A stretch of DNA of 41,169 nucleotides, from NCBI GenBank assembly GCA_025435355.1, contig JANJFQ010000004.1:1-41169 (forward strand). The letters are read 5' to 3'. This document shows, in pieces, positions 4,564 through 23,000 of this stretch (the first letter of the stretch is position 1; every line of letters begins with the position of its first letter). Position numbers and translations under genes: made by a program. The stretch is from Candidatus Methanophagales archaeon (GTDB taxonomy: Archaea; Halobacteriota; Syntropharchaeia; Alkanophagales; Methanospirareceae). A model generated the notes under the pieces. That model did no database searches and was not told where the DNA came from. It saw only the letters and a list, made by a program, of their open reading frames with translations.

Positions 4564-4607
4564 ATTTGAACTGTGACAAAGTCAAGCTACAATATCGAAA
4601 GATAAAA

Positions 4608-6644
4608 ATGCACGAAATAATCGGAGTTTTTAACCACGAACCCGAAAAATCAGCAGAGCTTGTAATCAAGGGTTTAGAAGTGCTGAAGAATAGAGAAGAT
4701 GCAGGTTTCTGGATTAGCACCGGGAACGGCGATTGGTATTCAAAAGACTTGCAAGAATTAAAACAGATTGTGAAGAAGGATAGTAAAAATTGCATTGCCT
4801 CATGTTCCTGTTTCAAAGAAAGTTCTGCTGGTAAAAGTAAGTTCGTAGCAGACGCAGAGATATATAATTTGAACGAATTAAAGGAAAAAAGGTTTGAAGG
4901 TGCTTATGCATTTGCGTATTGGGTAGGCGATGAGTTGTACATAGCGCGAGATACAATAGGTTTAAAGCCTGTTTGTTTCGCACACGCCGATGGATTCGCG
5001 TTTGCTTCGGAAAAGAAAGTGTTGGAAGCAATGGGATTCGCACATGCAATTGAACTTGACCCACGAGTGCTTTTGAAATACAACATAAAAGAAGACAGGT
5101 TGAGTTTCGAGAAAAGAAAGTTCTTTTACGTTGTGCCCGAGATAAAAGCGGATAAGGATAAGCTAAAAGAAGAATTGCTGAACTTGCTGCGAGAAAGTAT
5201 TTCGAGGAGGCAGGAGGAGAAGTTTGGCGTGCTCTTTTCCGGCGGATTGGATTCCACACTTATCGCTTACATCTGCAAGGATTTTGGTGCTGATTTTGTT
5301 TGTTATACCGTGGCAGTTGAAGAGCCGGAAATGAAGGAAGCAGAGGATTTGAGGTATGCGAAGCGGATTGCTGCGGATTTGGGCTTGAAGTTGAAAATAA
5401 AGAAAATGGGGGTTGAAGAGCTTGAGAAATATCTCAAAGAAGTCGTTCCCTTGATTGAGGATACAGACGTTGTAAAAGTTGGCGTGGCGTTGCCTTTATA
5501 TGTTGCATGCGAGCTTGCAAGGGAAGACGGTATAAAAACGGTTCTCTACGGTATCGGCGCTGAGGAGTTATTTACAGGCTATGAAAGACATAAACGAGTA
5601 AAAAAGGAGGATTTGAATACAGAATGTTTAGCCGGTCTGTTGAGGATGTACGAGCGCGACCTTTACAGAGATGAACTGGTGGCGAAGTCGCTGGGGATTT
5701 CGTTACGCGCACCATTTTTGGCTCCAGACCTTGTGGATTACGCATTGAGAATACCCGTGTCGTATAAATTGTTAGATGCTGAGAACAAGGTGATTTTAAG
5801 AGAAATAGCGAGAGACCTTGGGCTGGAGGGAGTTGCAGGCAGGAAAAAAAGAGCGGTGCAATATGGCTCAAATTTTCTTAAGGCGATAGAAAAGCTCGCA
5901 AAGAGAAAAGGGTTCAGGTATAAGAAAGATTTTTTGAGGACTTTTTATACTTCTCGGAACATAAAGTTGGGTTGCCTTTTCAGCTCTGGTAAGGACAGTG
6001 CTTATGCACTCTGGCTCATGCTAAAGGAGGGCTATCCCGTGGAATGTTTAATCACCCTAAAAAGTAGTAATCCCGAATCGTATATGTTCCACACGCCTGC
6101 GATAGACCTGGTAGAGCTGCAAGCCGAAGCGATTGGCTTGCCTCTGGTTATGAAAGAGACAGCGGGCGAGAAAGAAAAGGAACTGGAGGATTTGCGAGCT
6201 GCATTTAGGGAAGCGAAGACGAGATACGGGATAGAAGGGGTTATAACAGGTGCCTTATGGAGTAATTATCAAAAAGAACGAATAGAACGAATTGCAATGG
6301 AAGAGAACCTCAAGGTGTTCTCGCCTTTATGGCATATCAACCAGGAAACGGAGATGCGACTCGTGGTAACCAATCTCGAGGTAATTTTCACGGGCATCAG
6401 TGCGTATGGTCTGGACAAGAGCTGGCTTGGTAGGCGGATAACAGAGGAGGACGTTGACCGGTTGGTTGCGATGGACATTGAGATGAACGTCTCAGGAGAG
6501 GGCGGGGAATTTGAATCTTTGGTGTTGGATGGACCAATGTTCAAGAAAAGGCTTGTCATATTGAAAAGCGAGATAGTGGAGGAGGATGAGAATACTGCAA
6601 GATTAGTGGTGAAAGAGGCGAAATTGGACACGTCCGCATTTTAA
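4608..6644 (+). CDS. Asparagine synthetase-like / Dph6 diphthine-ammonia ligase fusion
   Basis: A 678-residue protein made of two enzymes. Residues 1 to about 165 resemble a class II glutamine amidotransferase domain, but the protein starts MHEIIGVF where asparagine synthetase has MCGI: the nucleophilic Cys2 is replaced by His. Residues ~200-430 form an AsnB-type ATP pyrophosphatase (FSGGLDSTL near 210; YGIGAEELFTGYERH). Residues ~455-678 form a Dph6/DUF71 domain (SSGKDSAYA at 459, TGALWSNYQKERIE, LGRRI, GEGGEFESLVLDGP). Dph6 amidates diphthine on elongation factor 2 using ammonium. An ATG at 4608 gives a family-like start; the earlier TTG at 4566 lies in a repeat. Diphthamide synthesis is the safest role for the C-terminal half. 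The N-terminal half probably uses free ammonia or is an accessory domain. Confidence 0.85.
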   Translation: MHEIIGVFNHEPEKSAELVIKGLEVLKNREDAGFWISTGNGDWYSKDLQELKQIVKKDSKNCIASCSCFKESSAGKSKFVADAEIYNLNELKEKRFEGAYAFAYWVGDELYIARDTIGLKPVCFAHADGFAFASEKKVLEAMGFAHAIELDPRVLLKYNIKEDRLSFEKRKFFYVVPEIKADKDKLKEELLNLLRESISRRQEEKFGVLFSGGLDSTLIAYICKDFGADFVCYTVAVEEPEMKEAEDLRYAKRIAADLGLKLKIKKMGVEELEKYLKEVVPLIEDTDVVKVGVALPLYVACELAREDGIKTVLYGIGAEELFTGYERHKRVKKEDLNTECLAGLLRMYERDLYRDELVAKSLGISLRAPFLAPDLVDYALRIPVSYKLLDAENKVILREIARDLGLEGVAGRKKRAVQYGSNFLKAIEKLAKRKGFRYKKDFLRTFYTSRNIKLGCLFSSGKDSAYALWLMLKEGYPVECLITLKSSNPESYMFHTPAIDLVELQAEAIGLPLVMKETAGEKEKELEDLRAAFREAKTRYGIEGVITGALWSNYQKERIERIAMEENLKVFSPLWHINQETEMRLVVTNLEVIFTGISAYGLDKSWLGRRITEEDVDRLVAMDIEMNVSGEGGEFESLVLDGPMFKKRLVILKSEIVEEDENTARLVVKEAKLDTSAF

Positions 6645-6699: not shown

Positions 6700-7317
6700 T
6701 TAACTTAGAGCTTCTTTTAGGCTATCAAGATTGAATTGCGTATTTGCACAGCCATTTTTTGTTAACGGAATCCCTTTGATAGCCAATCCTTCTGATTCTA
6801 CGAATCCTATTCCTAATTTTATTTCCTCGGGGCATGCAATCCCCAAAACGGCATCACAATTTATGTTTCCCAAAATTTTCTTTAGACAGGACCCACCAGG
6901 CAAAATAAATACTTTATAACCATTTTTTTCCCCAAGCTCAGTCGCTTGATTTGCTAAGCAATCAGTTGAGCAGTGGTTGCAGAAATAAGAAGAAAATTCT
7001 GCGTCAAAGTCCGCTTTGCACCTAAAATCCATGTAGTTTCTGCAGCAATGTGGAACGAACAACATTTTCTCTTTCGCTTTTTTGAAATCTTTTTCATAAA
7101 CCAAATTTTTAATATGAATATCTGCCAGGTCTTCGACAACAGAAATTGCGTCTTCCAACTGAATTCCAAGTATTTTATCCACTCCGAATTCTCTAACGAT
7201 ATTCTTTGAGACCTTCCCCAATTTCTTGTGCAATTTTCGTTTATTCACTATTTCTGCAATGTCTTTGAAAAACTCTCTTGGAAGTTTTGTCAAATCGTAG
7301 TTGAAAGAATATGACAT
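6700..7317 (-). CDS. DUF116 family protein, cysteine-rich
   Basis: A 205-residue protein starting MSYSFNYDLTKLPREFFKD. An amphipathic N-terminal half is followed by a Cys-rich half: VPHCCRN, CNHCSTDCLANQA, GGSCLKK, GIACPEE and NGCANTQ. This arrangement matches DUF116, an uncharacterised family of anaerobic archaea and bacteria. The many cysteines suggest a metal or Fe-S site. I chose the ATG at 7317 because the longer ORF runs into the divergent cas1 promoter. It is transcribed away from cas1; whether it is functionally linked to CRISPR is unknown. Confidence 0.75.
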   Translation of the reverse strand: MSYSFNYDLTKLPREFFKDIAEIVNKRKLHKKLGKVSKNIVREFGVDKILGIQLEDAISVVEDLADIHIKNLVYEKDFKKAKEKMLFVPHCCRNYMDFRCKADFDAEFSSYFCNHCSTDCLANQATELGEKNGYKVFILPGGSCLKKILGNINCDAVLGIACPEEIKLGIGFVESEGLAIKGIPLTKNGCANTQFNLDSLKEALS

Positions 7318-7369
7318 AATTTTATATCTAAATTTTATGCTTTTAAAAGTATGCATAAACATAAAAAAA
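7318..7369. promoter_or_regulatory. Divergent DUF116 / cas1 promoter region with palindrome
   Basis: This 52-bp AT-rich gap has a TATA-like TTTATATCTA and an inverted repeat, TTTATGC (7334-7340) and GCATAAA (7353-7359), around a perfect CTTTTAAAAG (7340-7349). The placement suits control of either or both divergent genes. No strong Shine-Dalgarno precedes cas1, so its transcript is probably nearly leaderless. Confidence 0.45.
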
Positions 7370-8392
7370 ATGCAATTGGTGATTAACACATACGGGTCTT
7401 ATCTGAGGAAGAAGGGAAACTGTTTCTTGGTGAGAAAAGAGGATAAGGTATTTGAAGTTTCTGTGAATAAAGTTGATAGCATTTTGATCACTACGGCGGC
7501 GTATATTTCCACGGATGCAATCAAGTTTGCAGTGGATAACAATATTGATATCGTTTTTCTCGATTCTTATGGGGACCCGTATGGACGTGTGTGGCATCCA
7601 AAATTAGGAAGCACGACGTTGATACGAAGGCGACAACTGGAGCTGTATGACAAAGAGGAGGGGCTGACGCTGGCAAAGAAATGGGGTATTCAGAAGTTTG
7701 ATAACCAGATAGAGTTATTGAAAAAGTTGAAGAAGACGAGAGCGGAGAAAAAAGATGAATTGGAAAGATGCGTAGCTGAAATAGGGCATTCGAAAGAGAG
7801 AATGAAGGTTTTAAAGGGCACAATCGAAGGAAGAAGACAGACGATGTTGGGTATAGAAGGCATGGCATCAAGAACATATTTTGAAGCGCTATCCTCAATC
7901 ATGCCGGAGAAATTCACATTTGAAACGAGGAGCAGAAATCCGGCGAAGGACGAGTTTAATGCTATGCTGAATTATGGGTATGGCGTTCTGTATTCAATGG
8001 TGGAGAAAGCGTGCATTATTGCGGGTTTAGACCCTTATATTGGATTTCTTCATACTGACAACTACAACAAGAAGTCGCTGGTCTTTGACATAATAGAAAT
8101 GTTCAGGACGTTCGTGGATGAAACCGTGGTTCATCTGTTCAGCAAACGAAAGGTAAAGGAGGAATATTTTGATAGGACAAACTTTTTAAAAAAGGTTGAT
8201 GCAACAAGCAAACAGAACGGGTTGAGTTTGAATAAAGACGGTAAGGCAGTGCTGATAGAAGCGTTAAACGAGACTTTTGAAAAGACAATGAAGTATAAGG
8301 GCAGGAATATAAAGACGAAGAACGTTATTCAATTTGAGTGTCATAGAATCGCGAACGGATTGATTAAAAAGACACAGATTGACGCAGATTAA
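7370..8392 (+). CDS. cas1: CRISPR-associated integrase Cas1
   Basis: A 340-residue protein. Cas1 forms the spacer-integration complex with Cas2. Starting MQLVINTYGSYLRKKGNCFL, it has an N-terminal beta domain and a C-terminal helical domain. The metal-binding residues are seen: E163 in GIEGMASRTYFEAL, H228 in GFLHTDNYNKKS and D240 in VFDIIEMF. The ATG at 7370 was chosen because it begins the conserved N-terminal strand. The last codons (KKTQIDAD) are made by a dispersed repeat that also spans the stop codon. cas2 follows 20 bp downstream. Confidence 0.96.
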   Translation: MQLVINTYGSYLRKKGNCFLVRKEDKVFEVSVNKVDSILITTAAYISTDAIKFAVDNNIDIVFLDSYGDPYGRVWHPKLGSTTLIRRRQLELYDKEEGLTLAKKWGIQKFDNQIELLKKLKKTRAEKKDELERCVAEIGHSKERMKVLKGTIEGRRQTMLGIEGMASRTYFEALSSIMPEKFTFETRSRNPAKDEFNAMLNYGYGVLYSMVEKACIIAGLDPYIGFLHTDNYNKKSLVFDIIEMFRTFVDETVVHLFSKRKVKEEYFDRTNFLKKVDATSKQNGLSLNKDGKAVLIEALNETFEKTMKYKGRNIKTKNVIQFECHRIANGLIKKTQIDAD

Positions 8393-8400
8393 CACAGATA
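8371..8400. repeat. Three-unit 'ACACAGATT' dispersed repeat forming the end of cas1
   Basis: Three consecutive 10-mers, GACACAGATT, GACGCAGATT and AACACAGATA, cover the last cas1 codons and the stop. They resemble the other 'CTGTGTAATCTTG' repeats in this window. The unit probably inserted or expanded at the gene end. Confidence 0.6.
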
Positions 8401-8412
8401 AGGAGGTTCACT

Positions 8413-8700
8413 ATGCTTGTATGGGTGATATACGACATATCGGATGATAGGGTAAGGGGTAAGGTAGCGAAGATATGCAAAGGTTACGGGCTTTACCGGG
8501 TGCAGAAGAGCGCTTTCTTAGGCGATTTGAATAAAAACGAAGCGGATTCCATCGCGTTGGAGTGCGAAGAGCTTATAGAAGAAGCTGATTCGGTATTCGT
8601 GTTTCCTATGTGTGACGATTGTTTCAAGAAGATAAAATTGATTGGCGAAGGGTTTGATAAGGATTTGATTAGCGATAAGGTGGTTACGAAAATATTTTGA
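8413..8700 (+). CDS. cas2: CRISPR-associated protein Cas2
   Basis: A 95-residue ferredoxin-fold protein that bridges Cas1 dimers during spacer integration. The N-terminal strand MLVWVIYDISDDRVRGKVAK carries the conserved Asp of the family. LYRVQKSAFLGDL and the C-terminal VFVFPMCDDC segment are also typical. The Shine-Dalgarno AAGGAGG (8400-8406) is well placed before the ATG. Confidence 0.95.
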   Translation: MLVWVIYDISDDRVRGKVAKICKGYGLYRVQKSAFLGDLNKNEADSIALECEELIEEADSVFVFPMCDDCFKKIKLIGEGFDKDLISDKVVTKIF

Positions 8701-8709
8701 TATTTAAAA

Positions 8710-8802
8710 AACCACAAGATTTACACAAACCTTTTTGCAAGCAAAAAGCTTTACCAAAAATATTAAGAAAACTTGAGTGAAAATCTGTGTAATCTTGTGG
8801 TT
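8710..8802. repeat. Inverted repeat structure between cas2 and cas4
   Basis: The left arm AACCACAAGATTTACACA (8710-8727) and right arm TGTGTAATCTTGTGGTT (8786-8802) are near-perfect inverted repeats able to form a long stem. Nested inside is a second hairpin at 8727-8758. The structure separates cas2 from cas4 and could attenuate read-through or protect RNA ends. It also consists of two repeat families seen elsewhere in the window. Confidence 0.6.
8727..8758. repeat. Dispersed hairpin repeat (AAACC..hairpin..GCTTTACCAAA), copy 1
   Basis: AAACC, then the hairpin CTTTTTGCAAGCAAAAAG, then CTTTACCAAA. The same layout, with a variable palindromic core between constant AAACC and GCTTTACCAAA flanks, recurs at 24004-24037, 24115-24152 and 25500-25533. 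Confidence 0.6.
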
Positions 8803-8811
8803 AAGAAAAAA

Positions 8812-9399
8812 ATGAGTGCTGAAGTGTTTATCACTGTTTCGGATGTGATGGAGTATCTGTTCTGCCCGAGGTTTATTTATTTCATGTATTGTTTGGGGAT
8901 ACCGCAGCATGAGGAGAAAAGGTATAAGGTTTTGAAGGGTCGCGAGTTGCACGATGCGAGGGAGAAGGTGAACAAGAGCTACATAAGGAAGAAGTTACAA
9001 TGCGTGAGAAAGGATATTGCGGTTTATTTAGTATCGAGGAAATATTGTCTCAAGGGCGAGGTGGATGAAGTTTTGTTTTTAGAAGATGGAACAGCGGCAC
9101 CGCTGGATTATAAGTTTGCGGAGTTTAAAGATAAAGTGTTCAGGACGCATAAGTATCAATCGGCATTATACGGGTTGATGATTGCTGATAATTATGGTTT
9201 AAAAGTGAATCGCGGGTTTGTGTGTTATACGAGAAGTAATCATTTGGTGAAGGAGGTGAAGCTCAGTGATAAGGATTTTGAACGTGCAATCGCGACAGTG
9301 AATGAGGTATTGGATATTATTCAAAAGGGTTTTTATCCTGAAGCGACAAAGTATAAGGCACGGTGCGTGGATTGCACGTACCGGAATATTTGCGTGTGA
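8812..9399 (+). CDS. cas4: CRISPR-associated exonuclease Cas4
   Basis: A 195-residue RecB-family nuclease that trims prespacers and checks the PAM in type I systems. The N-terminal iron-sulfur Cys is in EYLFCPRF, and the C-terminal cluster cysteines are in CVDCTYRNIC. The nuclease motifs are HDAREK, GEVDEVLF, PLDYKF and YQSALYGLM. I chose the ATG at 8812; the longer ORF from 8773 runs through a dispersed repeat. The gene completes the adaptation module cas1-cas2-cas4. Confidence 0.93.
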   Translation: MSAEVFITVSDVMEYLFCPRFIYFMYCLGIPQHEEKRYKVLKGRELHDAREKVNKSYIRKKLQCVRKDIAVYLVSRKYCLKGEVDEVLFLEDGTAAPLDYKFAEFKDKVFRTHKYQSALYGLMIADNYGLKVNRGFVCYTRSNHLVKEVKLSDKDFERAIATVNEVLDIIQKGFYPEATKYKARCVDCTYRNICV

Positions 9400-9425
9400 G
9401 ATAAAAGGTGTGGAAGGGGGAAGGG

Positions 9426-9548
9426 ATGGAAGAAAAAATGAAGAAGCGGATTATCGGAAATGATGTGAGTGGTTTTATAGCAAAAAATATACGGATTTGT
9501 ATATATACAAATTTGTATTTTTTGACGACAAAAAGGTGGTTTGAATGA
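9426..9548 (+). CDS. Possible 40-codon leader ORF before cas8b
   Basis: From ATG 9426, preceded by a G-rich purine tract, a 40-codon frame runs through the palindrome and ends in a TGA that overlaps the cas8b start by 4 nt (ATGA). Such overlap can give translational coupling. The peptide (MEEKMKKRIIGNDVSGFIAK and on) matches nothing I know, and the palindrome alone could explain the region. This is a weak call. Confidence 0.2.
   Translation: MEEKMKKRIIGNDVSGFIAKNIRICIYTNLYFLTTKRWFE
9481..9524. promoter_or_regulatory. 44-bp palindrome overlapping the cas8b promoter (candidate operator)
   Basis: The perfect 18-bp core ATTTGTATATATACAAAT (9495-9512) is extended on both sides by CAAAAAATA and TATTTTTTG arms, with a small internal asymmetry. 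The TATA-like centre lies about 40 bp upstream of the cas8b ATG, with GGTGGT (9535-9540) as ribosome-binding site. A symmetric site over the core promoter is what a dimeric repressor or activator would bind. It separates the adaptation genes from the interference genes. Confidence 0.6.
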
Positions 9549-11425
9549 TTGAGGCGATAAGAAGGATTGGAGGGTATACGCTTGAGAAGGAAGGAAAAAG
9601 CCTTGATAATCCTTTGGATATTTTGGTGGACGATCCTGCAAATAGAGACACAAAGAACATATTATTTATCCTTCTTAAAAGTGGAATAAATGGGTTTGAG
9701 TATAAAGGCGTAGAACTTGAGGAATATTCCAAAGAAAAACGTGAGAGATACGCATATAAAAAAGGTGCTCCAAATGGTACTGATATAACACCAACATCAA
9801 TGATTACCACGGTTGAGTCTACATTTGAAAGAACCAAGTTTTTACCATGGTTCAAAAAGTATGATAAACTCGGATCAAATGATGATATTAATTTTTTAGT
9901 AAAAGTGGGTATGTGTGTTCGACAAAATAGCGGAGAGATTTTAAGCGACCTAAAAGACAAGTACGATAAAGAAAACAATATTATTAGTTTGAAAATTGAC
10001 AACAAATATCTTGGAGATTATGACGCATTTTTAAGAATCTTAGTTGATAGAGCAAAGGAAAATCTTTATTCAAAGTATGGAAAAGTATCAAAATCAGAGA
10101 ATCAGATATGTTCAGTCTGCAATCAAAGAGGGGCGGAGGTTTATGGTTTCGTGGACACTTATAAATTTTATACCGTTGACAAACCCGGTTTTGTAAGTGG
10201 AGGCTTTCAACAAGAGGATGCATGGAAGAATTATCCGGTATGCTTAAACTGTGCATTAACACTTGAAGCAGGTAAGAAATATCTTGGGAATAGCATGAAT
10301 TTTAATTTTTATGGATTTAACTATCTCTTGATCCCTAAATTTGTTACTGGTGTTGGGGAAGAGACAAAAAAAGAGACTTTCAAAATTATAGAACAACAAC
10401 AAGATCCAAAGTTTAGGAGAAAGGAAATAAATCGGTTGACTTCGGATGAAAAAGAGATATTGGTGTTAATGAGCGAACAAAAGAATTATTTAAATCTAAA
10501 TTTTATGTTTTATGATGCCCCAAAGGGATATAACGGAGCCGTTTTTAATGTTCTTCTTTATATCGAGGATATTTTACCTTCGAGATTGAAGAAATTATTT
10601 AATTGCAAAGAAGTTGTAGATACAATTGATATTTTCAACGAATGTATGATTTCTGTGTTTGAAAATAAAAAGAAAACGGGTGAAAAACCATTGGAATTTA
10701 ATTTTGGAGTATTACGTACATTTTTTCCACGAGTAAGCAATAATAGAACTTACGATAAATACTTCTTGGACATTGTAAACAAGATTTTCACAAACAAACT
10801 AATCGACTACAACTTCCTGATGAATTTCATTATGCAGAAAATACGGGATGATTTTATAAATAACAATCCCACTAAAATATCAACACTAAAGGGTTTTATG
10901 CTATTGAACTATTTAAACAACTTAGGGATAATAAAACTTAAGGAGAGGAGAGAGATGAATAGTAAAGAGGCAGAAGAGAATTGGGAACTATTTGAAGGGG
11001 CAGCATCAGGTGAGAGAAAAGAGATAAGCCAAAAAATTAGTTCTTTTTTCAGTAGGTTTGGCGATTTCTTTGATAGCGATGCAAAGAAGGTGGTTTTTCT
11101 CGAAGGTGTTCTAACACAATTTTTGTTAAATATCCAATACCAGGAAAGAGGAGCGACACCCTTTAAGGTTAAACTAAAAGGATTAAACTTAGATGAGAAA
11201 CAAGTTAAAAAACTTCTGCCAGAAATACAAAACAAGTTAGAGGAATATGGTAAAAATTATTATCGGACTCTGGAATCATTAATTTCAAAGTATTTCATTT
11301 CAGCAGGAAATGGATGGAAGATGTCAAATGATGAAACAAGCTTTTATTTTGTGCTTGGAATGAATCTTCATTATATCTTTAAAACAAAGAAGGAAAGTAG
11401 TAATGGAGGCAAAGAAAATGAGTGA
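9545..11425 (+). CDS. cas8b: Type I-B Cascade large subunit Cas8b (Csh1-like)
   Basis: A 626-residue protein. Cas8b is the large subunit of the type I-B interference complex and takes part in PAM recognition and target-strand handling. Position and length fit. A zinc-finger-like pair of CxxC motifs, CSVCNQRGAEVYG (~residue 190) and CLNCAL (~230), is typical of the Csh1 (TM1802) family. The family is poorly conserved in sequence, and identification leans on the adjacent Csh2-type Cas7. The stop overlaps the cas7 start by 8 nt. Confidence 0.88.
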   Translation: MIEAIRRIGGYTLEKEGKSLDNPLDILVDDPANRDTKNILFILLKSGINGFEYKGVELEEYSKEKRERYAYKKGAPNGTDITPTSMITTVESTFERTKFLPWFKKYDKLGSNDDINFLVKVGMCVRQNSGEILSDLKDKYDKENNIISLKIDNKYLGDYDAFLRILVDRAKENLYSKYGKVSKSENQICSVCNQRGAEVYGFVDTYKFYTVDKPGFVSGGFQQEDAWKNYPVCLNCALTLEAGKKYLGNSMNFNFYGFNYLLIPKFVTGVGEETKKETFKIIEQQQDPKFRRKEINRLTSDEKEILVLMSEQKNYLNLNFMFYDAPKGYNGAVFNVLLYIEDILPSRLKKLFNCKEVVDTIDIFNECMISVFENKKKTGEKPLEFNFGVLRTFFPRVSNNRTYDKYFLDIVNKIFTNKLIDYNFLMNFIMQKIRDDFINNNPTKISTLKGFMLLNYLNNLGIIKLKERREMNSKEAEENWELFEGAASGERKEISQKISSFFSRFGDFFDSDAKKVVFLEGVLTQFLLNIQYQERGATPFKVKLKGLNLDEKQVKKLLPEIQNKLEEYGKNYYRTLESLISKYFISAGNGWKMSNDETSFYFVLGMNLHYIFKTKKESSNGGKENE

Positions 11426-12398
11426 AGTGATAAAAAATAGGTCGGAAATAGTATTTTTGTACGATATAAAGGATGCGAATCCCAATGGGGACCCATTGGA
11501 TGAGAATAAGCCAAGAATAGATGAAGAAACGGGAATAAACATAGTAACTGATGTCAGGTTGAAGAGGACTATAAGAGATTACCTGATGAACTTTAAAAAT
11601 GAGGAGATATTTGTTAGAGAAATAACCGATGAAGCGGGTAAAATACAAGACGCTAAGCTAAGGGCAAAAGATTTTCTAAAAGAGGTGGTTGATCTGGGAC
11701 AGAGGGGCTTTAATGAACAGAAAAACATAATTAAGGACAAAATAGTTAACGACTGCATTGACGTCCGATTGTTCGGCGCCACGATACCTCTCGATTTAGC
11801 AATAAAAGAAGGAAGTAAATCAAAAAATGTTACTGGCTCTATAACTCTAACTGGTCCTGTTCAGTTCAGGATGGGCAGGTCATTGCATAAAGTTGAGATG
11901 AAACATATTAAAGGAACTGGTGCATTTGCTTCTAAAGCTGGTTCAACGCAAAAAACATTTAGAGAAGAGGATATTTTACCATATTCTTTAATCGGTTTTT
12001 ATGGTATTATCAATGAAAATGCAGCAAAACATACGCAACTAACAGAAGACGATGCACCTTTACTTTTAGATGGGATGTGGAATGGAACTAAAAATTTAAT
12101 TTCAAGAAGCAAAGCAGGACAGATGTCGAGATTACTATTGAAAGTGAATTACAAAGAAAAGAATTACCATATCGGAGATTTGGATAAGCTCATTAAGATA
12201 AAAGACATTGAAAAGCTAAATCAAGAGAAGATACGGGATATTTCGGAAATCGCCTTGGATACAACTGAATTGATTCAAACATTGAACGAAAACAAGGATA
12301 AAATCGAAAGTATTGATATAAAAATCGGTGATAGAGTGAATATTGATTTTAGTGGTTTGGACGAAAGTATAACCCAAAATGAGATCTCGTTCGAGTGA
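11418..12398 (+). CDS. cas7: Type I-B Cascade backbone subunit Cas7 (Csh2)
   Basis: A 326-residue RAMP-fold protein that forms the helical backbone along crRNA. The N-terminal region (EIVFLYDIKDANPNGDPLDE, then RIDEETGINIVTDVRLKRTI) is diagnostic of the Csh2/Cas7 group. SITLTGPVQFRMGRSLHKV and GTGAFASKAG also match. I chose the ATG at 11418 because GGAGG at 11405-11409 is correctly spaced for it; the upstream ATG 11403 overlaps that site. Translation is coupled to cas8b. Confidence 0.94.
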   Translation: MSEVIKNRSEIVFLYDIKDANPNGDPLDENKPRIDEETGINIVTDVRLKRTIRDYLMNFKNEEIFVREITDEAGKIQDAKLRAKDFLKEVVDLGQRGFNEQKNIIKDKIVNDCIDVRLFGATIPLDLAIKEGSKSKNVTGSITLTGPVQFRMGRSLHKVEMKHIKGTGAFASKAGSTQKTFREEDILPYSLIGFYGIINENAAKHTQLTEDDAPLLLDGMWNGTKNLISRSKAGQMSRLLLKVNYKEKNYHIGDLDKLIKIKDIEKLNQEKIRDISEIALDTTELIQTLNENKDKIESIDIKIGDRVNIDFSGLDESITQNEISFE

Positions 12399-12406
12399 GT
12401 AAAAGT

Positions 12407-13168
12407 ATGGCTCAAGAGCAATCGATAAAACAGGTGTTAATATTTGATGTATGGGGGTGTTACGCACATTTTAGGCGGTTCTATACTACTACCTCGCCTC
12501 TCACATTTCCTATTCCACCACGAACTGCGTTATGCGGCTTAATCGCAGCTATAATTGGGAAAGACAAGGGGGATAATGAATATTTAAAATATTTCACACT
12601 AAACGAGGCATCAATTGGTTTAAGATTGCTCAATCCAGTAAAGAAGGTAATGATTGCAGAGAATTTGATACACACGAAAAATGCAAAGGGTCCGGGAATG
12701 AACTTAATAACAGAGCGAACTCAAATAAATTTCGAGTTTCTGAAAGATCAGAAGTATAGAATTTATTTTCATCATACAGATGAGGATCTTTATCAACAAC
12801 TGAAAGAGAACTTAATAAGCCACAAATCAGTATATACCCCCTGTCTTGGTTTAAGCGAGAATATAGCAAATTTTGAGTTCGTGGGTGAATTTAAAGTCAA
12901 ATCAGAAACTACTGAAGAATATGTCCAAATTAATTCTGTTTTACCAACTGAAAAGATTGCGGAAAAACAGGGTATAAAATTTAGTTTTAACGGTGAGTAT
13001 TTCTCGATAAGAGTCCCAATAGAACTAAATTTAGATAGAGTCGTTACAAAATACAGTGACATCTTTTTTGAAAGAACCGGTAAGCCTGTAGAAGCTAAAC
13101 TAATAAGTCATTACTGGAGCATAGATTATATAGGCAAAACAAATGAAAACATCGTTTTTATTGAATAA
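12407..13168 (+). CDS. cas5: Type I-B Cascade subunit Cas5
   Basis: A protein of about 253 residues. Cas5 caps the 5' handle of crRNA. The N-terminal segment VLIFDVWGCYAHFRRFYTTT with FPIPPRTALCGLIAAIIG is the conserved Cas5 region. I prefer the ATG at 12407; a GTG at 12395 would give a 4-nt overlap with the cas7 stop and four extra residues. The 3' end overlaps cas3 by 26 nt. Confidence 0.92.
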   Translation: MAQEQSIKQVLIFDVWGCYAHFRRFYTTTSPLTFPIPPRTALCGLIAAIIGKDKGDNEYLKYFTLNEASIGLRLLNPVKKVMIAENLIHTKNAKGPGMNLITERTQINFEFLKDQKYRIYFHHTDEDLYQQLKENLISHKSVYTPCLGLSENIANFEFVGEFKVKSETTEEYVQINSVLPTEKIAEKQGIKFSFNGEYFSIRVPIELNLDRVVTKYSDIFFERTGKPVEAKLISHYWSIDYIGKTNENIVFIE

Positions 13169-15650
13169 TCTTAAATCACATCCGAATAGGCTTTTAAAAG
13201 ATCATCTTTTTAACGTTGGAAAATACTGCAAGGAGACTTTATCATCAAAAAAACTAAACATAGAGAAATATATTGATTTCGATACGCTTCAGGATGTTGC
13301 TTATTTAATTGGTGTGACCCACGACTTCGGTAAGGCTACTTCTTATTTTCAAAATTATATAAGTGAGAAAGATGAATCAATGAGGGCGAAACTAAAAACC
13401 AAACTAGAGACCCATCATGGATCTGTTTCATCCATTTTCACATATTATGCTATAAGAGAGTACCTACAGAGCAAAAACCTGCAGGATAAAAGATATTATG
13501 AATACCTACCAATAATAAGTTTTTTAGTCGTAAAGCGACATCACGGGAATTTACACAATGCTGATGATGAAGTTATTGATTTTGATGAAAAAGATGATGA
13601 AATTTTAGAGAAACAGATCGGTTCCATTGATTTTAGAGAATTAAACGAAATTTATGGTTTTTTATTATCAAAGATAAATCTTGATTTTGATTGCAGAGTT
13701 ATTGAAACTAAAATTTTACATTCAGAACCAGTTGATATTTACGGTAAACAAGAGTTCCAAAAAGATTATGTAAAAGACCTATCGAGAAAAGAGAATAGAC
13801 TAATCCGTAACATAGATGAAGAACATACTCTACTATTTTATTTTGTAACTTTGTTGCTATATTCAATACTTCTGGATGCGGATAAAACAGATGCTGCTAA
13901 TTTAGAAGAGATAGAACGAGTTGATATAAATGAAAATATCATTGATGAATATAAAAAACTTAAATTCGGCGACAAAGAAGATAAAAATAGGAAGATAAAC
14001 GAGATGCGAAATGAGATTTACGAAGAAGTTCTATCAAATGTAGAGCGTATAAACCGGGATAAAGATAAAATTTTGTCATTAAATGTTCCAACAGGTACGG
14101 GTAAAACACTTACAGCATTATCTTTCGCACTAAAATTAAGAAAAAGAATAGAAAGCGAAAGAGAGTATAAACCAAGGGTAATATACTCTTTGCCATTTCT
14201 GAGCTTTATAGATCAAAATTTTGCTGTTTTCGAAGACGTTTTTGAGACGGTTAATAAAGAAAAACCAACTTCAGACATACTCCTAAAACATCATCACCTA
14301 TCGGATGTGGTTTACACAACAAAAGAAGATGAATTTGAGAATGTAGATAAAGACATAGGTAAAGACCTTCTTTTAATTGAAGGTTGGAACTCTGAGATTA
14401 TTGTTACGACTTTCATTCAGTTTTTTCATTCATTGATATCAAACAGAAACAGAGCAATAAGAAAGATCCATAATATCACAAATAGTATTGTTATTTTAGA
14501 TGAGGTTCAGGCGATACCGCATAAATATTGGCTACTGCTGAATAAAATAATGAAATTTTTTGCAGAGCAGTTTAATACCTATTTCATATTTATCACTGCC
14601 ACACAACCGTTAATTTTTGATGAGACAAAGAAGGAGATAAGCTCGTTAGTAGAAAATAAGAGAAAATATTTCAACTCTCTAAATAGGGTGAAGTTGATAG
14701 CAAATTTAGAATCCGTTTGCCTTGATGATTTCAAAGAAATATTGAGGAAAGAGATAATGCAAAATCACAATAAAGATTTTTTAGTCGTCCTAAATACGAT
14801 TAAATCTTCAAAAGATATTTATGACTTTGTTAAGGGACTAAATATTAAAAATGTTGGACTTTATTACCTTTCAACGAATGTAATCCCGAAAGAGAGACTA
14901 ATAAGAATCAAAAAAATAAAAGGGAAAAGCGCAACAAGGCATATTATTATCAGCACTCAACTTATTGAAGCAGGGGTAGACATAGATGCAGCTATTGTTT
15001 ATCGCGATTTTGCACCACTGGATTCAATAAACCAAGTCTCTGGAAGGTGCAATAGAAATTTTGGTGATAAACAAGGTATCGTTAAACTTTTTATTTTGAG
15101 GGAAGATAAAAATGGAAGAGCATACTACCCTCATACGATCTATGGTAGTTTCATTATTTCTAAAACTAAAGAAGTGTTCAAAGAAATTGATAAAGAGGAG
15201 ATGGAAGAAAGCGAATTCCTAAAGTTAAATGAAAATTACTTTGAAAAAGTAAATATCGGGAAAAGTGAAGACGAGTCAAATAGTATTTTAGAAAAAGTTG
15301 AAAGGCTAAAGTTTAGTGAACTGTCCGATTTTAAGTTAATTGAAAAGGATTATTCCGAAGTCGATGTTTTTATCGAAGCTGATGATAATGCCAAATCAGC
15401 ATGGCAGGAATATCAAGAAATTAAATCAATAGATGACCTAAGGGAGCGGAAAAAGAGATTTTTGGAAATTAAGAAAGAATTCTACGATTATGTGATTTCA
15501 GTTCCTGAAAAATTTAAGAATCAAGTTGGCTTTGACGAAAAGATGGGTATTGGGTATATCTCAAAAACTGAGATAGAGCAGGGGATTAATTATAATCAAG
15601 AGACAGGGTTCAAAGGAGAAGAAGGTAGTGCTGGAACTTTACTTTTTTAG
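13143..15650 (+). CDS. cas3: CRISPR-associated helicase/nuclease Cas3
   Basis: An 835-residue protein. It is recruited by target-bound Cascade, nicks the displaced strand and unwinds and degrades the target DNA. The N-terminal HD nuclease domain shows HLFNVGKYC and THDFGK (H60, D61), then HHGSVSS and KRHHGNLH. The superfamily 2 helicase has Walker A VPTGTGKT (about 315-322), a DEVQ box at 453, FITATQP (motif III), STQLIEAGVDID and QVSGRCNRN (motifs V and VI). HD and helicase are fused and complete. The C-terminal region (~700-835) is charged and variable. The next reading frame after its stop is the truncated cas6 relic. Confidence 0.95.
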   Translation: MKTSFLLNNLKSHPNRLLKDHLFNVGKYCKETLSSKKLNIEKYIDFDTLQDVAYLIGVTHDFGKATSYFQNYISEKDESMRAKLKTKLETHHGSVSSIFTYYAIREYLQSKNLQDKRYYEYLPIISFLVVKRHHGNLHNADDEVIDFDEKDDEILEKQIGSIDFRELNEIYGFLLSKINLDFDCRVIETKILHSEPVDIYGKQEFQKDYVKDLSRKENRLIRNIDEEHTLLFYFVTLLLYSILLDADKTDAANLEEIERVDINENIIDEYKKLKFGDKEDKNRKINEMRNEIYEEVLSNVERINRDKDKILSLNVPTGTGKTLTALSFALKLRKRIESEREYKPRVIYSLPFLSFIDQNFAVFEDVFETVNKEKPTSDILLKHHHLSDVVYTTKEDEFENVDKDIGKDLLLIEGWNSEIIVTTFIQFFHSLISNRNRAIRKIHNITNSIVILDEVQAIPHKYWLLLNKIMKFFAEQFNTYFIFITATQPLIFDETKKEISSLVENKRKYFNSLNRVKLIANLESVCLDDFKEILRKEIMQNHNKDFLVVLNTIKSSKDIYDFVKGLNIKNVGLYYLSTNVIPKERLIRIKKIKGKSATRHIIISTQLIEAGVDIDAAIVYRDFAPLDSINQVSGRCNRNFGDKQGIVKLFILREDKNGRAYYPHTIYGSFIISKTKEVFKEIDKEEMEESEFLKLNENYFEKVNIGKSEDESNSILEKVERLKFSELSDFKLIEKDYSEVDVFIEADDNAKSAWQEYQEIKSIDDLRERKKRFLEIKKEFYDYVISVPEKFKNQVGFDEKMGIGYISKTEIEQGINYNQETGFKGEEGSAGTLLF

Positions 15651-15657
15651 ACTTACA

Positions 15658-15741
15658 ATGCACCTCAAAACCTTAAAACTAATCTTAAAATCCGACAGAC
15701 CTGTGGAAGAAGCCACCACGAAGTTAAGAGGCTTTATTTAA
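15658..15741 (+). pseudogene. Truncated relic of cas6 (first ~26 codons)
   Basis: Seven bases after the cas3 stop, this frame reads MHLKTLKLILKSDRPVEEAT followed by TKLRGF. That matches the N terminus of the intact Cas6 at 16283 (MNLKTLKLTLKSDRPVKEAA then AKLRGF), and the DNA is also clearly homologous over about 78 bp. The match stops abruptly where the hicB-like gene begins on the other strand. So an earlier cas6 copy sat directly behind cas3, as in an ordinary operon, and was cut off. The divergence says the two copies are not a very recent duplication. Confidence 0.85.
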
Positions 15742-15982
15742 GAAGCTCGATTAGTTCATCTTTTGCCACTACTTCTACTGTTGTCCCGTAGGAGTCAACA
15801 GATACTTCAGGCATGTCTTCAAGCCCAAAACTCTCGATGTAAAGCTCGATAGCCTCTTTGAGATTCTTCTGTGCTTCCACAAGAGATTCGCCTTGTGACG
15901 TCACGCCAAGTTCTGGACACCTTGCCACAAAGAATTTACCTTCCTGGATGATGGACACCAGAAACACCTTTTTGTTCTCCAT
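15734..15982 (-). CDS. HicB-like antitoxin-fold protein, solitary
   Basis: An 82-residue protein starting MENKKVFLVSIIQEGKFFVA and containing CPELGVTSQGESLVEAQKNL and KEAIELYIE. This is the same fold as HicB antitoxins (UPF0150), though the C-terminal half differs from the 3507 copy. No HicA partner follows or precedes it. A Shine-Dalgarno-like GAGGTG lies upstream of the ATG. It is oriented against the cas operon and its stop codon overlaps the end of the cas6 relic, so it marks the insertion that broke cas6. Confidence 0.8.
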   Translation of the reverse strand: MENKKVFLVSIIQEGKFFVARCPELGVTSQGESLVEAQKNLKEAIELYIESFGLEDMPEVSVDSYGTTVEVVAKDELIELLK

Positions 15983-16030
15983 TATTTATATTTCACCTCT
16001 TATTATTTTGACTTTGTCATATTTAAAATT

Positions 16031-16150
16031 TACCGCTGAGAACGCTGAGTTCACAGAGAAAATAAGGGGTTAGGGGTTTAGTTGTCAGGTATTAGTAACC
16101 CTAAAACCTAAACCTACATCCTCTGCGTTCTCCGTGAACTCTGTGGTTAA
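16031..16150. repeat. Pair of inverted 'CTCTGCG/GAACTC' repeats, copies 3 and 4
   Basis: Copy 3 (16031-16060, reverse: TACCGCTGAGAACGCTGAG and on) and copy 4 (16119-16150, forward: CCTCTGCGTTCTCCGTGAAC and on) are inverted. The enclosed ~58 bp also has partly complementary TTAGGGG and CCTAAA tracts. The whole could fold into a long hairpin between the solitary hicB and cas6. Confidence 0.6.
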
Positions 16151-16225
16151 TCTGACAATGTCAAGTTATTATTTGATTGAAGAACATGATAGAGTGGTGG
16201 AAAGGTTAAGAGCAATATGACACCT

Positions 16226-16282
16226 TTTTTTATATATATCTTCTGCTCCTTTTAGTATTGGTAAATTTTTAGGTGATGTACC
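16226..16282 (+). promoter_or_regulatory. cas6 promoter and ribosome-binding site
   Basis: TTTTTATATATATC (TATA box centred about 16232) followed by AGGTGAT (16271-16277) before the ATG at 16283. This indicates that cas6 has its own promoter after being separated from cas3 by the insertion. Confidence 0.6.
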
Positions 16283-16954
16283 ATGAACCTAAAAACGCTA
16301 AAACTAACCTTAAAATCCGACCGCCCCGTAAAAGAAGCCGCCGCGAAGTTAAGAGGCTTCTTCACCACTCGCTTCAACGAATACGCACTTCTTCATCAGC
16401 ATGTCGAGGTGGACAAACTACTCTATAAATATCCACGTATCCAGTATAAGATATTAGAAGGCACAGCGTTCGTGCTGGGCATAGAAGAAGGTGCAGAAGT
16501 TTTAAAAGAAGTTTACGACAAATACGATGAGATACAATTAGGCAAAAACGTATATACCATTGTAGAACGCGGTATAACCCTAAAAGAAGAGGAATTCGGC
16601 ATTTCCACGGAAATAATAAGTTATGAGTTCATCACACCCTGGATAGCGTTGAGTCAGGCTAACTACCAGCGATATTTAGAATCGAAGCGAGAAGACCGAA
16701 GAGAGCTTTTACGGAGGACGCTTATTGGAAATATTCTATCGGCATCGAAAGGGTTGGATTATGTGGTTCTGGAAGAGATAAAGCTGGAAATCGGGAGGTT
16801 GCGACTGAGGAAGTGCGAGCTTAAAGGGACGTCATTTATTGGGTTCTTAGGTAGGTTCATGGTGAATTTTGTTATTCCTGATTCCATGGGGCTTGGGAAG
16901 TCGGTTTCGAGGGGGTTCGGGACTGTGAGGAGGGTGATTGATAGAGCAAGTTAA
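16283..16954 (+). CDS. cas6: CRISPR RNA endoribonuclease Cas6
   Basis: A 223-residue RAMP protein that cleaves the array transcript within each repeat, leaving the repeat-derived 5' handle. Candidate catalytic histidines are at 38/40 (LLHQHVE). The family glycine-rich loop is at the C terminus: MGLGKSVSRGFGTVRRV. The preceding ~80 bp of coding DNA is homologous to the relic at 15658. The gene ends 117 bp before the first repeat, so Cas6 and its substrate array are adjacent and co-oriented. Confidence 0.94.
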   Translation: MNLKTLKLTLKSDRPVKEAAAKLRGFFTTRFNEYALLHQHVEVDKLLYKYPRIQYKILEGTAFVLGIEEGAEVLKEVYDKYDEIQLGKNVYTIVERGITLKEEEFGISTEIISYEFITPWIALSQANYQRYLESKREDRRELLRRTLIGNILSASKGLDYVVLEEIKLEIGRLRLRKCELKGTSFIGFLGRFMVNFVIPDSMGLGKSVSRGFGTVRRVIDRAS

Positions 16955-17071
16955 ATAATCTGCTAAGCATGTATTTATATAGCGATGAATAAAAAATATA
17001 TGTGAAAACATGATGGGAAAAAGGAGCAAGGAGATAAGAGAAAAAGGGGTGAAGAAGGGAAAATTGCCGCA
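16955..17071 (+). promoter_or_regulatory. CRISPR leader
   Basis: AT-rich, then purine-rich non-coding DNA between cas6 and the first repeat. TATA-like GTATTTATATAGC lies near 16970-16982 and AAAAAATATATG further down. The repeats end in ATTGAAAC at their right-hand end, the usual 3' end of type I repeats relative to the leader, so this is the leader side and new spacers enter here. Confidence 0.75.
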
Positions 17072-20000
17072 GTCGCAGAGGCTAATCCAATAAAACAAGG
17101 ATTGAAACTAGAATTCGCAACAAGGTTTCATCAACAGATAAATGGGTCGCAGAGGCTAATCCAATAAAACAAGGATTGAAACAGGAAAAAAAGGAGGTAA
17201 AAAAATGGGTGAAGAAAAGTCGCAGAGGCTAATCCAATAAAACAAGGATTGAAACATTCTACCTTGAATGCCTTTAGTTAAGGTAATTGTCTGTCGCAGA
17301 GGCTAATCCAATAAAACAAGGATTGAAACTCGCATCAACATACAGTGGCGTTACAATTACTACTTCGTCGCAGAGGCTAATCCAATAAAACAAGGATTGA
17401 AACATGGTTGAGTTGGCGTTATAAACGGCGAGTATTTCCGTCGCAGAGGCTAATCCAATAAAACAAGGATTGAAACCCTATGATTTTACCCCATAACCAG
17501 ATTATCGCATTAGTCGCAGAGGCTAATCCAATAAAACAAGGATTGAAACACCATGTCCTACAAAGAAACTAACCAAAGAAGATGTGTCGCAGAGGCTAAT
17601 CCAATAAAACAAGGATTGAAACTTTCGTGAATCCACAGATAGAGCGTGAAGTGTCGCGTCGCAGAGGCTAATCCAATAAAACAAGGATTGAAACACCATT
17701 GTTGTTTCCGTATAAATGGCTGTTTTAAATAGTCGCAGAGGCTAATCCAATAAAACAAGGATTGAAACATCATATCCAACCACCCCGTCTGGCTCGAAGC
17801 CATTGTCGCAGAGGCTAATCCAATAAAACAAGGATTGAAACCGACAAAGCAGGATTCTCAATCTCAGGAACGAAGCGTCGCAGAGGCTAATCCAATAAAA
17901 CAAGGATTGAAACTTAGGTCCTATCGGTGCTGTAATATACGCAATCAAAGTCGCAGAGGCTAATCCAATAAAACAAGGATTGAAACAATAGCTCCATCGC
18001 TTTCTCTTCTCGCTGTACTACTGTGTCGCAGAGGCTAATCCAATAAAACAAGGATTGAAACATAACAGGTGAGAGTGTAGTAAAAGCATTAGCAAAAGGT
18101 CGCAGAGGCTAATCCAATAAAACAAGGATTGAAACAATCCATGCATAACCAAAAACTATTATCGCCAGCTCGTCGCAGAGGCTAATCCAATAAAACAAGG
18201 ATTGAAACGCCATATTTCTGCTTTCCATGTCGTCATTGCTCAGTGTCGCAGAGGCTAATCCAATAAAACAAGGATTGAAACCAGGAGAAACGAACAAGTA
18301 TAGCAAAAGCAATGCGAGAGTCGCAGAGGCTAATCCAATAAAACAAGGATTGAAACTATACTTTCACTCCTTATATATAATTAAGATCAATAAGTCGCAG
18401 AGGCTAATCCAATAAAACAAGGATTGAAACATAATCAATGTATTCGCAGTATCCATAAGTCTTCTATTGTCGCAGAGGCTAATCCAATAAAACAAGGATT
18501 GAAACGCAAAGCCTTACAACTATGTAATTTACGACGGCTTCGTCGCAGAGGCTAATCCAATAAAACAAGGATTGAAACACGAAGCTGCCACCAGCTATTT
18601 TCTGAGCAAATTTAGTCGCAGAGGCTAATCCAATAAAACAAGGATTGAAACCCACTCTTCGCAGATATTCAAGAGGCATTACAATAGTCGCAGAGGCTAA
18701 TCCAATAAAACAAGGATTGAAACTCTTCAGGCTCGGTCAGTATAGCAGCAAATATTTCGTCGCAGAGGCTAATCCAATAAAACAAGGATTGAAACAAAGG
18801 AGTATTCGCTGGAACAGTAGAAAAAGTAAAGGGTCGCAGAGGCTAATCCAATAAAACAAGGATTGAAACTGCATGAATGTAAAATACCAATGAAGCTAAC
18901 GATAGGTCGCAGAGGCTAATCCAATAAAACAAGGATTGAAACTCTCGAATGCTATTGTAGGATTAGACGTTTCTGTTCCGTCGCAGAGGCTAATCCAATA
19001 AAACAAGGATTGAAACAATAGACAAGAAAGAAACATCTATTACATCAGTCATCGTCGCAGAGGCTAATCCAATAAAACAAGGATTGAAACAAATGATGGG
19101 CTCACTTGGAACGATAGCATACGATATGTCGCAGAGGCTAATCCAATAAAACAAGGATTGAAACGATAGGTGACGTTACTCGACTGCCTTTGAGATTGCG
19201 TCGCAGAGGCTAATCCAATAAAACAAGGATTGAAACGAACCGGCACATCGAAATGCGATGTACTTCCTTTTTTGTCGCAGAGGCTAATCCAATAAAACAA
19301 GGATTGAAACCCATATCTCCGCTTTCCAGGTCGTCATTGGTCACTTGTCGCAGAGGCTAATCCAATAAAACAAGGATTGAAACAATCAGAATTAAAGAGG
19401 GGTGTCGAACTTTTAAATGTCGCAGAGGCTAATCCAATAAAACAAGGATTGAAACCCGTTCGACGTGCCGTCTTTCTTATGGAAGCCCAGGTCGCAGAGG
19501 CTAATCCAATAAAACAAGGATTGAAACCATCCCAAAATTTATTGTGTTTTTCATACATCACAAAGTCGCAGAGGCTAATCCAATAAAACAAGGATTGAAA
19601 CACAGAGATGAAGCGAGCGAAAGCAGAGCTTGAAAACGTCGCAGAGGCTAATCCAATAAAACAAGGATTGAAACAAAGCTTGGGAAGAGCATCAATATAG
19701 GATATGGTCAGTCGCAGAGGCTAATCCAATAAAACAAGGATTGAAACAAATCGCTTCGCTCTATCTTAGCTACGATAGAAATAAGTCGCAGAGGCTAATC
19801 CAATAAAACAAGGATTGAAACAATGCGGATATGTCTTCCCGGTCAAGTCATGCCGCAGGTCGCAGAGGCTAATCCAATAAAACAAGGATTGAAACACCTG
19901 GGATGGCGCACGTATCTGGAGCTGTGATGATTGTCGCAGAGGCTAATCCAATAAAACAAGGATTGAAACACCACTCCCATTTACTCAACATTTTATTTAT

Positions 20001-23000
20001 TCCTCGTCGCAGAGGCTAATCCAATAAAACAAGGATTGAAACATGTCCTTGGTATTTGTTTATTTAACCCATGAGAAGTCGCAGAGGCTAATCCAATAAA
20101 ACAAGGATTGAAACTATACTCATATTCTCAATATATTATTGAGGTGATGGTCGCAGAGGCTAATCCAATAAAACAAGGATTGAAACAGTGCTTATGATGT
20201 AATAAAAAATATTAGATATATTAGTCGCAGAGGCTAATCCAATAAAACAAGGATTGAAACCATGGAATACGCAAATGCAGCAGGCGAATCGGACTGGGTC
20301 GCAGAGGCTAATCCAATAAAACAAGGATTGAAACTTTATTCTCTACTCTCAAAACGAGTACCCTCACGAGTCGCAGAGGCTAATCCAATAAAACAAGGAT
20401 TGAAACTCAGTGTACAAACCGGCAACTGGGACGATGGCGCAAGTCGCAGAGGCTAATCCAATAAAACAAGGATTGAAACTCGTTTCCGTATCTCTATTAT
20501 ATGAGCTTTATTAAAGTCGCAGAGGCTAATCCAATAAAACAAGGATTGAAACTCCAGTTTCGCAATTTTACCCATTCCCGCATCACTGAGTCGCAGAGGC
20601 TAATCCAATAAAACAAGGATTGAAACCCGTTACAGCGAGCGTTTGTGTCCAGTCTGTATTAGTCGCAGAGGCTAATCCAATAAAACAAGGATTGAAACAA
20701 TGAGGAAGAAGGCAATGAAAGCGATAGCCGAAATAGGTCGCAGAGGCTAATCCAATAAAACAAGGATTGAAACTTTCTGATTTGGCTCGCACGACACCTA
20801 TGTTTTTCATGTCGCAGAGGCTAATCCAATAAAACAAGGATTGAAACTTTTACTCATTGGACTCATCACCTGTTTTTCTCTGGTCGCAGAGGCTAATCCA
20901 ATAAAACAAGGATTGAAACAATACCCATATTGTAATATATTATTAGTAGTGCTATAGGTCGCAGAGGCTAATCCAATAAAACAAGGATTGAAACCCAAAA
21001 GCCGATGTCATTCTTGGCAGCACGCCATGCGGTCGCAGAGGCTAATCCAATAAAACAAGGATTGAAACGATATACAAAAAAGGTAAGCGAATCCCAAAAA
21101 AGCGTCGCAGAGGCTAATCCAATAAAACAAGGATTGAAACTTAAAGTAAAGGTTTTTATTCTCTCTGTTATTTTCATGTCGCAGAGGCTAATCCAATAAA
21201 ACAAGGATTGAAACTTATCAAACTAATCCTCAAAACTGTTTCAAAAAAATTGTCGCAGAGGCTAATCCAATAAAACAAGGATTGAAACACTGTGCATGCT
21301 CCGCTTCCGCATCAGTTTTTGGCATGTCGCAGAGGCTAATCCAATAAAACAAGGATTGAAACCTTCAAAAACAAAAGAATCTATTATTCACAGAAAAATG
21401 TCGCAGAGGCTAATCCAATAAAACAAGGATTGAAACTAGCAATATAGGCACTTTAACAAGCATGGCGTTTCCGGTCGCAGAGGCTAATCCAATAAAACAA
21501 GGATTGAAACGAACACCCAGATCCGGCATAGGTATAGGTATAGGTATGTCGCAGAGGCTAATCCAATAAAACAAGGATTGAAACACACGAGTACATTATG
21601 CTGCGGGTGGAACATCCCGGGTCGCAGAGGCTAATCCAATAAAACAAGGATTGAAACTACTGCGCCGGTAAATCCTGTAAATCAATCGCAATTTGTCGCA
21701 GAGGCTAATCCAATAAAACAAGGATTGAAACGAAGTAAATCAAGTATAAGACAGGGAATAGCTCAAAAGTCGCAGAGGCTAATCCAATAAAACAAGGATT
21801 GAAACTTGTGGGATAAACGGCGGACCGAGAATGAGCTCGTTAGTCGCAGAGGCTAATCCAATAAAACAAGGATTGAAACTAGCCTTCTAATTCTTCTTTA
21901 CTTACCATTTTTACCGTCGCAGAGGCTAATCCAATAAAACAAGGATTGAAACGTATTTGCAGCGTCTGCGAACTCCTGTGTAATACCTTGTCGCAGAGGC
22001 TAATCCAATAAAACAAGGATTGAAACAATAGACTAAGCGAGACAAAGAGTGTATATGATGAAAGTCGCAGAGGCTAATCCAATAAAACAAGGATTGAAAC
22101 TTAAACCAAAGAAAACATACCAGTTTTCTCTACAACTGTCGCAGAGGCTAATCCAATAAAACAAGGATTGAAACAATAGAGCTGTCCCAGCGAATATTTG
22201 TAATCTTTCAGTCGCAGAGGCTAATCCAATAAAACAAGGATTGAAACCAAAACCAAAAGCAAGCATAGGGGGCGTATTGTGGTTGTCGCAGAGGCTAATC
22301 CAATAAAACAAGGATTGAAACAATGAGGCAGTGATAGATAATTTAGCGGCACTGGAAGTCGCAGAGGCTAATCCAATAAAACAAGGATTGAAACATATGG
22401 AGTGGCTTCGAGCACGGGCAGGTGGTTGGATAGTCGCAGAGGCTAATCCAATAAAACAAGGATTGAAACACCACCTTTTCCGCGATCCACGGTATAATAT
22501 CTTTTTGTCGCAGAGGCTAATCCAATAAAACAAGGATTGAAACCCGAATTGTGTGTTCGATGTCACAACAAATACCACAGTCGCAGAGGCTAATCCAATA
22601 AAACAAGGATTGAAACTTGATTGCGTATAAGGTGTATTTGTAGCATCCAAGGTGTCGCAGAGGCTAATCCAATAAAACAAGGATTGAAACTTTACCATTT
22701 GGCTTCGCGTACTTTTTTTGGTCTCCAGTCGCAGAGGCTAATCCAATAAAACAAGGATTGAAACTTAGAGAAGGTGCAATAAAAGACGTCTCGCCAAACT
22801 AGTCGCAGAGGCTAATCCAATAAAACAAGGATTGAAACAAATAAAGATAATCTACAAGACTTGTTCCACCCGTTGTCGCAGAGGCTAATCCAATAAAACA
22901 AGGATTGAAACACTCGAAGGTCGTATAATATTGGAATGATATTACTGTCGCAGAGGCTAATCCAATAAAACAAGGATTGAAACAATATCTGATCTGTTAC

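Follow-up and report, generated by a model that had tools for sequence, protein, structure and literature searches.

The locus examined here raises the question of what a protein half derived from asparagine synthetase (AsnB) does when it is joined to Dph6, the diphthine-ammonia ligase that completes diphthamide on the translation factor EF-2, and has lost the cysteine at which AsnB takes ammonia from glutamine. It lies in a 41,169-nucleotide stretch of DNA from a Candidatus Methanophagales archaeon, referred to below as the window. Since 2012 the ammonia source for archaeal diphthamide has been an unsettled matter, with the fusion to a glutamine amidotransferase (GAT) as one hint. In that year the architecture GAT-II-AsnB-DUF71 was published from Methanohalophilus mahii, Methanosalsum zhilinae and Candidatus Nanosalinarum, and GAT-II was suggested to supply ammonia to both ligases; the function of the AsnB-like domain was already queried by one of the reviewers (PMC3541065). 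The architecture itself is known, and what the sequence comparisons appear to add is the decay of the glutaminase, the complementarity between fused and separate Dph6, and data on tRNA charging.

The protein is encoded by a single forward-strand frame of 678 amino acids at 4608-6644, with an ATG at 4608 and no internal stop, in which MHEIIG at the N terminus, SGGLDS (residues 211-216) and SSGKDSAYA (residues 459-467) all lie. An alternative TTG start at 4566 (ORF 4566-6644) would add MNCDKVKLQYRKIK (4566..4607), and no MCGI is found in this added stretch. A remnant of a class-II glutamine amidotransferase (4608..5057, residues 1-150) is delimited by alignments to canonical AsnB and by a partial GATase_7 match (37.8 bits, restricted to residues 94-140). 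It is followed by an AsnB-type PP-loop ligase domain (5058..5933, residues 151-442), identified by Asn_synthase (140 bits), alignment motifs and Foldseek, with SGGLDS at 5238-5255, YGIGAEE, the counterpart of AsnB SGEGSDE, at 5547-5567, and RKKRAVQYGS at 5841-5870. A short linker (5934..5951) joins this to the Dph6 domain (5952..6626, residues 449-673), which carries SSGKDS, NPESYMFHT, SNYQKER, SAYGLDKSW and SGEGGEFES and matches Diphthami_syn_2 at residues 455-670 (220 bits). With NCBIfam models, the protein scores 270.5 bits for TIGR03679 (Dph6_archaeal, cut-off 197.3) and 177.6 bits for the AsnB equivalog, below its cut-off of 267.1. The order of domains is that of the published M. mahii and M. 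zhilinae proteins, and the frame, Pfam and NCBIfam together confirm the reading of the earlier note that two ATP-dependent ligase modules, one AsnB-like and one Dph6, are joined in one chain. In an AlphaFold model of the protein (input of 28 relatives, mean pLDDT 85, pTM 0.80), the first two parts match E. coli AsnB (1CT9), which is the best Foldseek hit ahead of human ASNS and beta-lactam synthetase, and the last part matches Pyrococcus furiosus Dph6 (3RK1, TMt 0.92). A Gat-QueC identity was dropped, as QueC reaches 31 bits against 140 for Asn_synthase.

A fused frame in a single assembly could be the product of a sequencing or assembly error, for example an indel near 5940 that merges two genes, and Methanococcoides and genus g36 do carry the two as separate, overlapping genes (here g-codes denote genera, f-codes families, and G and L handles the genomes and loci compared). 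Yet the same frame is present in most of the window's family and also in Methanosarcinaceae: 56 fused loci were read, and neither a gap nor a frame break was seen at the junction in any of those compared. As the frame of the relatives crosses the junction, a merger near 5940 is rejected, and we give this explanation practically no credence. All three parts are under purifying selection (dN/dS), and most genomes have either the fusion or the overlapping genes. In the sister family f2 the AsnB-like and Dph6 genes lie apart, and two genera taken as Methanosarcina-like (g68 and g78) have an ordinary Dph6 and, for AsnB, only a weaker match. In the trees, which have no reliable outgroup root, the window protein clusters with the fusions of Methanosarcinaceae, and fusion-type Dph6 groups apart from ordinary stand-alone Dph6; with no outgroup to root the Dph6 tree, the fusion could either predate or postdate the split from f2. 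The same fusion is also seen in two loci outside the phylum search, labelled Altiarchaeota and uncultured archaeon (L070, L071), with Cys2 retained, where transfer or mis-binning is possible.

In the case of the Dph6 half, the key PP-loop and substrate residues listed in PMC3541065 are all kept (the PP-loop, SYM-HT, E78, YQ and GEGGEFE). The domain is like the archaeal Dph6 PF0828 of P. furiosus (3RJZ/3RK1) in sequence (3RJZ, E=9.7e-53), fold and key residues, but differs from it in being fused and in falling into a separate tree group from stand-alone Dph6. The genome, which is 82% complete, also contains dph2, dph5 and an EF-2 with the target histidine (IHRGPAQ). A search for a separate dph6 in this genome gave no Dph6 proper. 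The only other DUF71 gene, on contig C42, matches PF01902 with 198 bits, but it was dropped as a second Dph6 given its 29% identity and its B12-type motif (CGEHGEYHTF); the window protein itself has SGEGGEFES in place of the ENGE(F/Y)H-type motif of that group. Because the key residues are kept, the rest of the pathway is present and the other DUF71 is of the B12 type, the C-terminal part is, judged from sequence, most likely the working Dph6 of the cell. Yeast Dph6 uses ammonium (PMC5354562).

The glutaminase part is in a very different state. Residues are numbered here after E. coli AsnB, and the canonical AsnB site is Cys1, Asn74 and Gly75 in mature numbering. Aligned to canonical AsnB, the window protein has Cys2 replaced by His, Asn74 by Asp and Gly75 by Ala, so that neither the cysteine nucleophile nor the oxyanion hole is present, and Arg49 and the Asp98 loop are lost as well. 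The earlier note had read MHEIIG in place of MCGI as a missing nucleophile; this is real but understates the damage, which extends over several positions of the site. Its conclusion that the amidotransferase part is unable to hydrolyse glutamine gains support from the loss of all five residues, and on these grounds glutamine hydrolysis by this part cannot be expected. An overlooked upstream start with MCGI is ruled out, since the relatives begin at the identical aligned Met, mostly with MC there. Residue 2 is Cys in 37 aligned rows (one of them a separate AsnB) and another residue in 31, with H, Y, S, T, A, G, Q and M as substitutes and at least nine state changes at this position on the tree of the AsnB half. 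His2 is confined to the genus of the window, where it occurs in both species in which the locus was found, and since it is not conserved beyond that genus no special role for it is indicated.

Other positions suggest that the decay is older than the loss of the cysteine. Asn74 is replaced by Asp in every ANME-1-like member that aligns there, and Gly75 is gone whether Cys2 is present or not; most ANME-1-like relatives retain Cys2 while having lost both oxyanion-hole residues. As these were already lost in members that keep Cys2, the site was decaying before the window protein lost its cysteine, which makes that loss a late one. In most pairwise comparisons of relatives dN/dS is higher for the GAT remnant than for the other two parts; it reaches at most 0.62 and so stays below 1. 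Loss of Arg49 was dropped as proof that the glutaminase is dead, because some stand-alone archaeal AsnB (L079, L091) are without it too; by sequence, the change of Asn74 to Asp and the loss of Gly75 are firmer signs of inactivity. Among the separate AsnB of Methanophagales/ANME-1 records, Glu is found at this position in L084 and L088 and Arg in L086 and L092. In most ANME-1-like members (L013-L038) the region of Arg49 is occupied by a cysteine-rich stretch, NCIACCSC, which could conceivably be a metal site.

These observations bear directly on the 2012 proposal, in which the GAT-II part splits glutamine and the ammonia is passed to Dph6 and the AsnB domain. The proposal has something to build on, as some Methanosarcinaceae (e.g. 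G271, G056) and L070 and L071 keep Cys2 and Asn74 and mostly Asp98, and the missing Arg49, nearly always Leu in these proteins, is shared with L079 and L091. Even here, however, Gly75 is Cys in all Cys2-bearing Methanosarcinaceae, with Arg49 changed to Leu in all but one, and L070 and L071 likewise have Cys at 75. In Methanohalophilus and Methanococcoides both Cys2 and Asn74 are gone, and the genome taken as M. mahii (G065), itself a named example from 2012, has a fusion that begins MMQKLISIFN, with no recognisable glutaminase site; a second Methanohalophilus protein (G195; named record L072) has an identical start. With the glutaminase part decayed, the idea of ammonia supply fails for the window gene and for M. 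mahii, and we regard it as very improbable. Glutamine hydrolysis is thereby removed as a likely ammonia source in most members of the fusion.

The AsnB-like half has been treated otherwise by evolution. SGGLDS, G-x-G-[AST]-E-E and RKK-QYGS are conserved in the alignment of the relatives, with the PP-loop and RKK-QYGS invariant or nearly so, and dN/dS for this half is 0.04-0.25, including 0.07-0.18 in genomes of genus g5, where the motifs are kept. Conservation of the AsnB ATP site makes it probable that the N-terminal half is a ligase using free ammonia or an amine. In the fusion, Ile or Leu stands in place of the catalytic Glu348 of AsnB and Glu in place of Asp351, with YGIGAEE where AsnB has SGEGSDE, so that the acceptor motif is unlike both the bacterial (GEGADE) and the archaeal (GQGADE) form; Glu is not universal at 348, as the stand-alone archaeal AsnB compared have Gln. 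These changes could also mean that the ligase reaction is lost and ATP binding retained.

A further line of evidence comes from genomes in which the attached Dph6 has itself broken down. Key residues of the PP-loop or substrate motifs of the fused Dph6 are lost in G026, G017 and G261, which belong to one genus, and in G031, and the fused Dph6 is missing from two more genomes of that genus (G033, G039). An ordinary Dph6 encoded separately (41-45% identity) is present in each of the six, and in the Dph6 tree these genes fall into a single clade together with one from family f12. By comparison, a separate Dph6 was found in 0 of the 33 genomes of the family with an intact fused Dph6, many genomes being drafts in which the absence of a gene is uncertain. 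The complementarity gives a Fisher P=3e-7, uncorrected for relatedness, and as the genomes are non-independent about two events would suffice to produce it. In all six the AsnB-like half is conserved. The earlier note had proposed that the N-terminal half acquired a substrate-presenting, regulatory or ammonia-using role: the conserved ATP site points in the ammonia-using direction, whereas a purely presenting or regulatory role towards the attached Dph6 is disfavoured because the half stays under purifying selection where that Dph6 is degenerate or missing.

The same facts have to be weighed if the AsnB-like half is taken as a catalytically silent scaffold, or a module that docks Dph6 to EF-2. 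The prevalence of fused or overlapping genes and the loss of Glu348 would fit such a role, and yeast Dph6 is likewise joined to extra domains, which it needs (PMC3585130). These are RidA (YjgF) domains, unrelated to the AsnB-like half and proposed as an ammonia source (PMC3541065, PMC3585130). Against a silent scaffold stand the invariant ATP-loop motifs and the selection on the half despite a degenerate or absent attached Dph6, except if the half works in trans for the separate Dph6, as it could in the six genomes. On balance we consider a scaffold unlikely.

The half might instead be an ammonia-dependent asparagine synthetase that is joined to Dph6 incidentally. Its homology to AsnB is strong, also in fold, and it is apparently the sole AsnB-type protein in several genomes (e.g. 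G074, G263, G017, G039), but the diverged catalytic motif and the sub-threshold equivalog score both count against this. The window genome moreover has a separate AsnB on contig C225 (82-88% identical to AsnB in Methanophagales/ANME-1 records), which answers whether an asnB exists apart from the fusion. No asparaginyl-tRNA synthetase scores above cut-off in any of 48 genomes, and GatB does so in 47 of the 48 (in the window genome it is an edge fragment), and tRNA charging therefore does not need free asparagine. Taken together, this makes asparagine synthesis a poor candidate. A comparably slim chance is given to the AsnB-like half installing a second, previously undescribed amide on a component of translation, EF-2 or another, which would make the fusion a two-step protein-modification enzyme.

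The reading that we prefer, and hold to be fairly probable, is that a working, ammonium-dependent Dph6 is linked to a ligase of AsnB descent which glutamine no longer feeds and which has a substrate of its own. The C-terminal Dph6 would use ATP to adenylate the diphthine carboxylate of EF-2, which free ammonium would then amidate. The N-terminal two thirds would derive from an AsnB that depended on glutamine, its glutaminase having since decayed. We infer that its PP-loop domain binds ATP and acts as an acyl-adenylating ligase, with ammonia from solution or a substrate-borne amine, on an acid that is unlikely to be aspartate. Both ligases would be held together, in fused or overlapping genes, presumably for a common complex or substrate, possibly in contact with EF-2, and the AsnB-like half would not depend on catalysis by its attached Dph6. 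There are ligases of the AsnB fold, beta-lactam and carbapenam synthetase, that function without glutamine. Their structures (1JGT, 1Q15) are the next-best folds to the window model, and such a glutamine-independent AsnB relative is the favoured analogy for the AsnB-like half. They differ in belonging to secondary metabolism, using an intramolecular amine (PMC6594144) and lacking a Dph6, and are not closely related in sequence; from AsnB itself (1CT9), which shares the overall GAT-II and PP-loop fold and SGGLDS, the window protein differs by its missing glutaminase site, the changes at 348 and 351 and the fused Dph6. The data indicate that the AsnB-like half is retained in its own right, and a vague argument from gene fusion thereby becomes a testable question about a ligase of methanogens and of archaea that oxidise methane anaerobically.

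The surroundings of the gene give few hints about the substrate, as no gene neighbourhood is conserved beyond the close relative G001, and the upstream genes are common to the window and G001 alone. Directly downstream lies a DUF116 gene (6703-7389, reverse strand), which adjoins the fusion in G015 (L187) too; G001 has just a distant DUF116-like pair. Translation genes elsewhere in the window, all on the reverse strand, are TiaS (24156-25499), a tRNA pseudouridine synthase (36529-37365) and an amidase, probably GatA (38427-39899). The region 7364-23900 holds a type I-B CRISPR-Cas system with cas1, cas8b, cas7, cas3 and cas6b, whose array contains the repeat GTCGCAGAGGCTAATCCAATAAAACAAGGATTGAAAC about 93 times.
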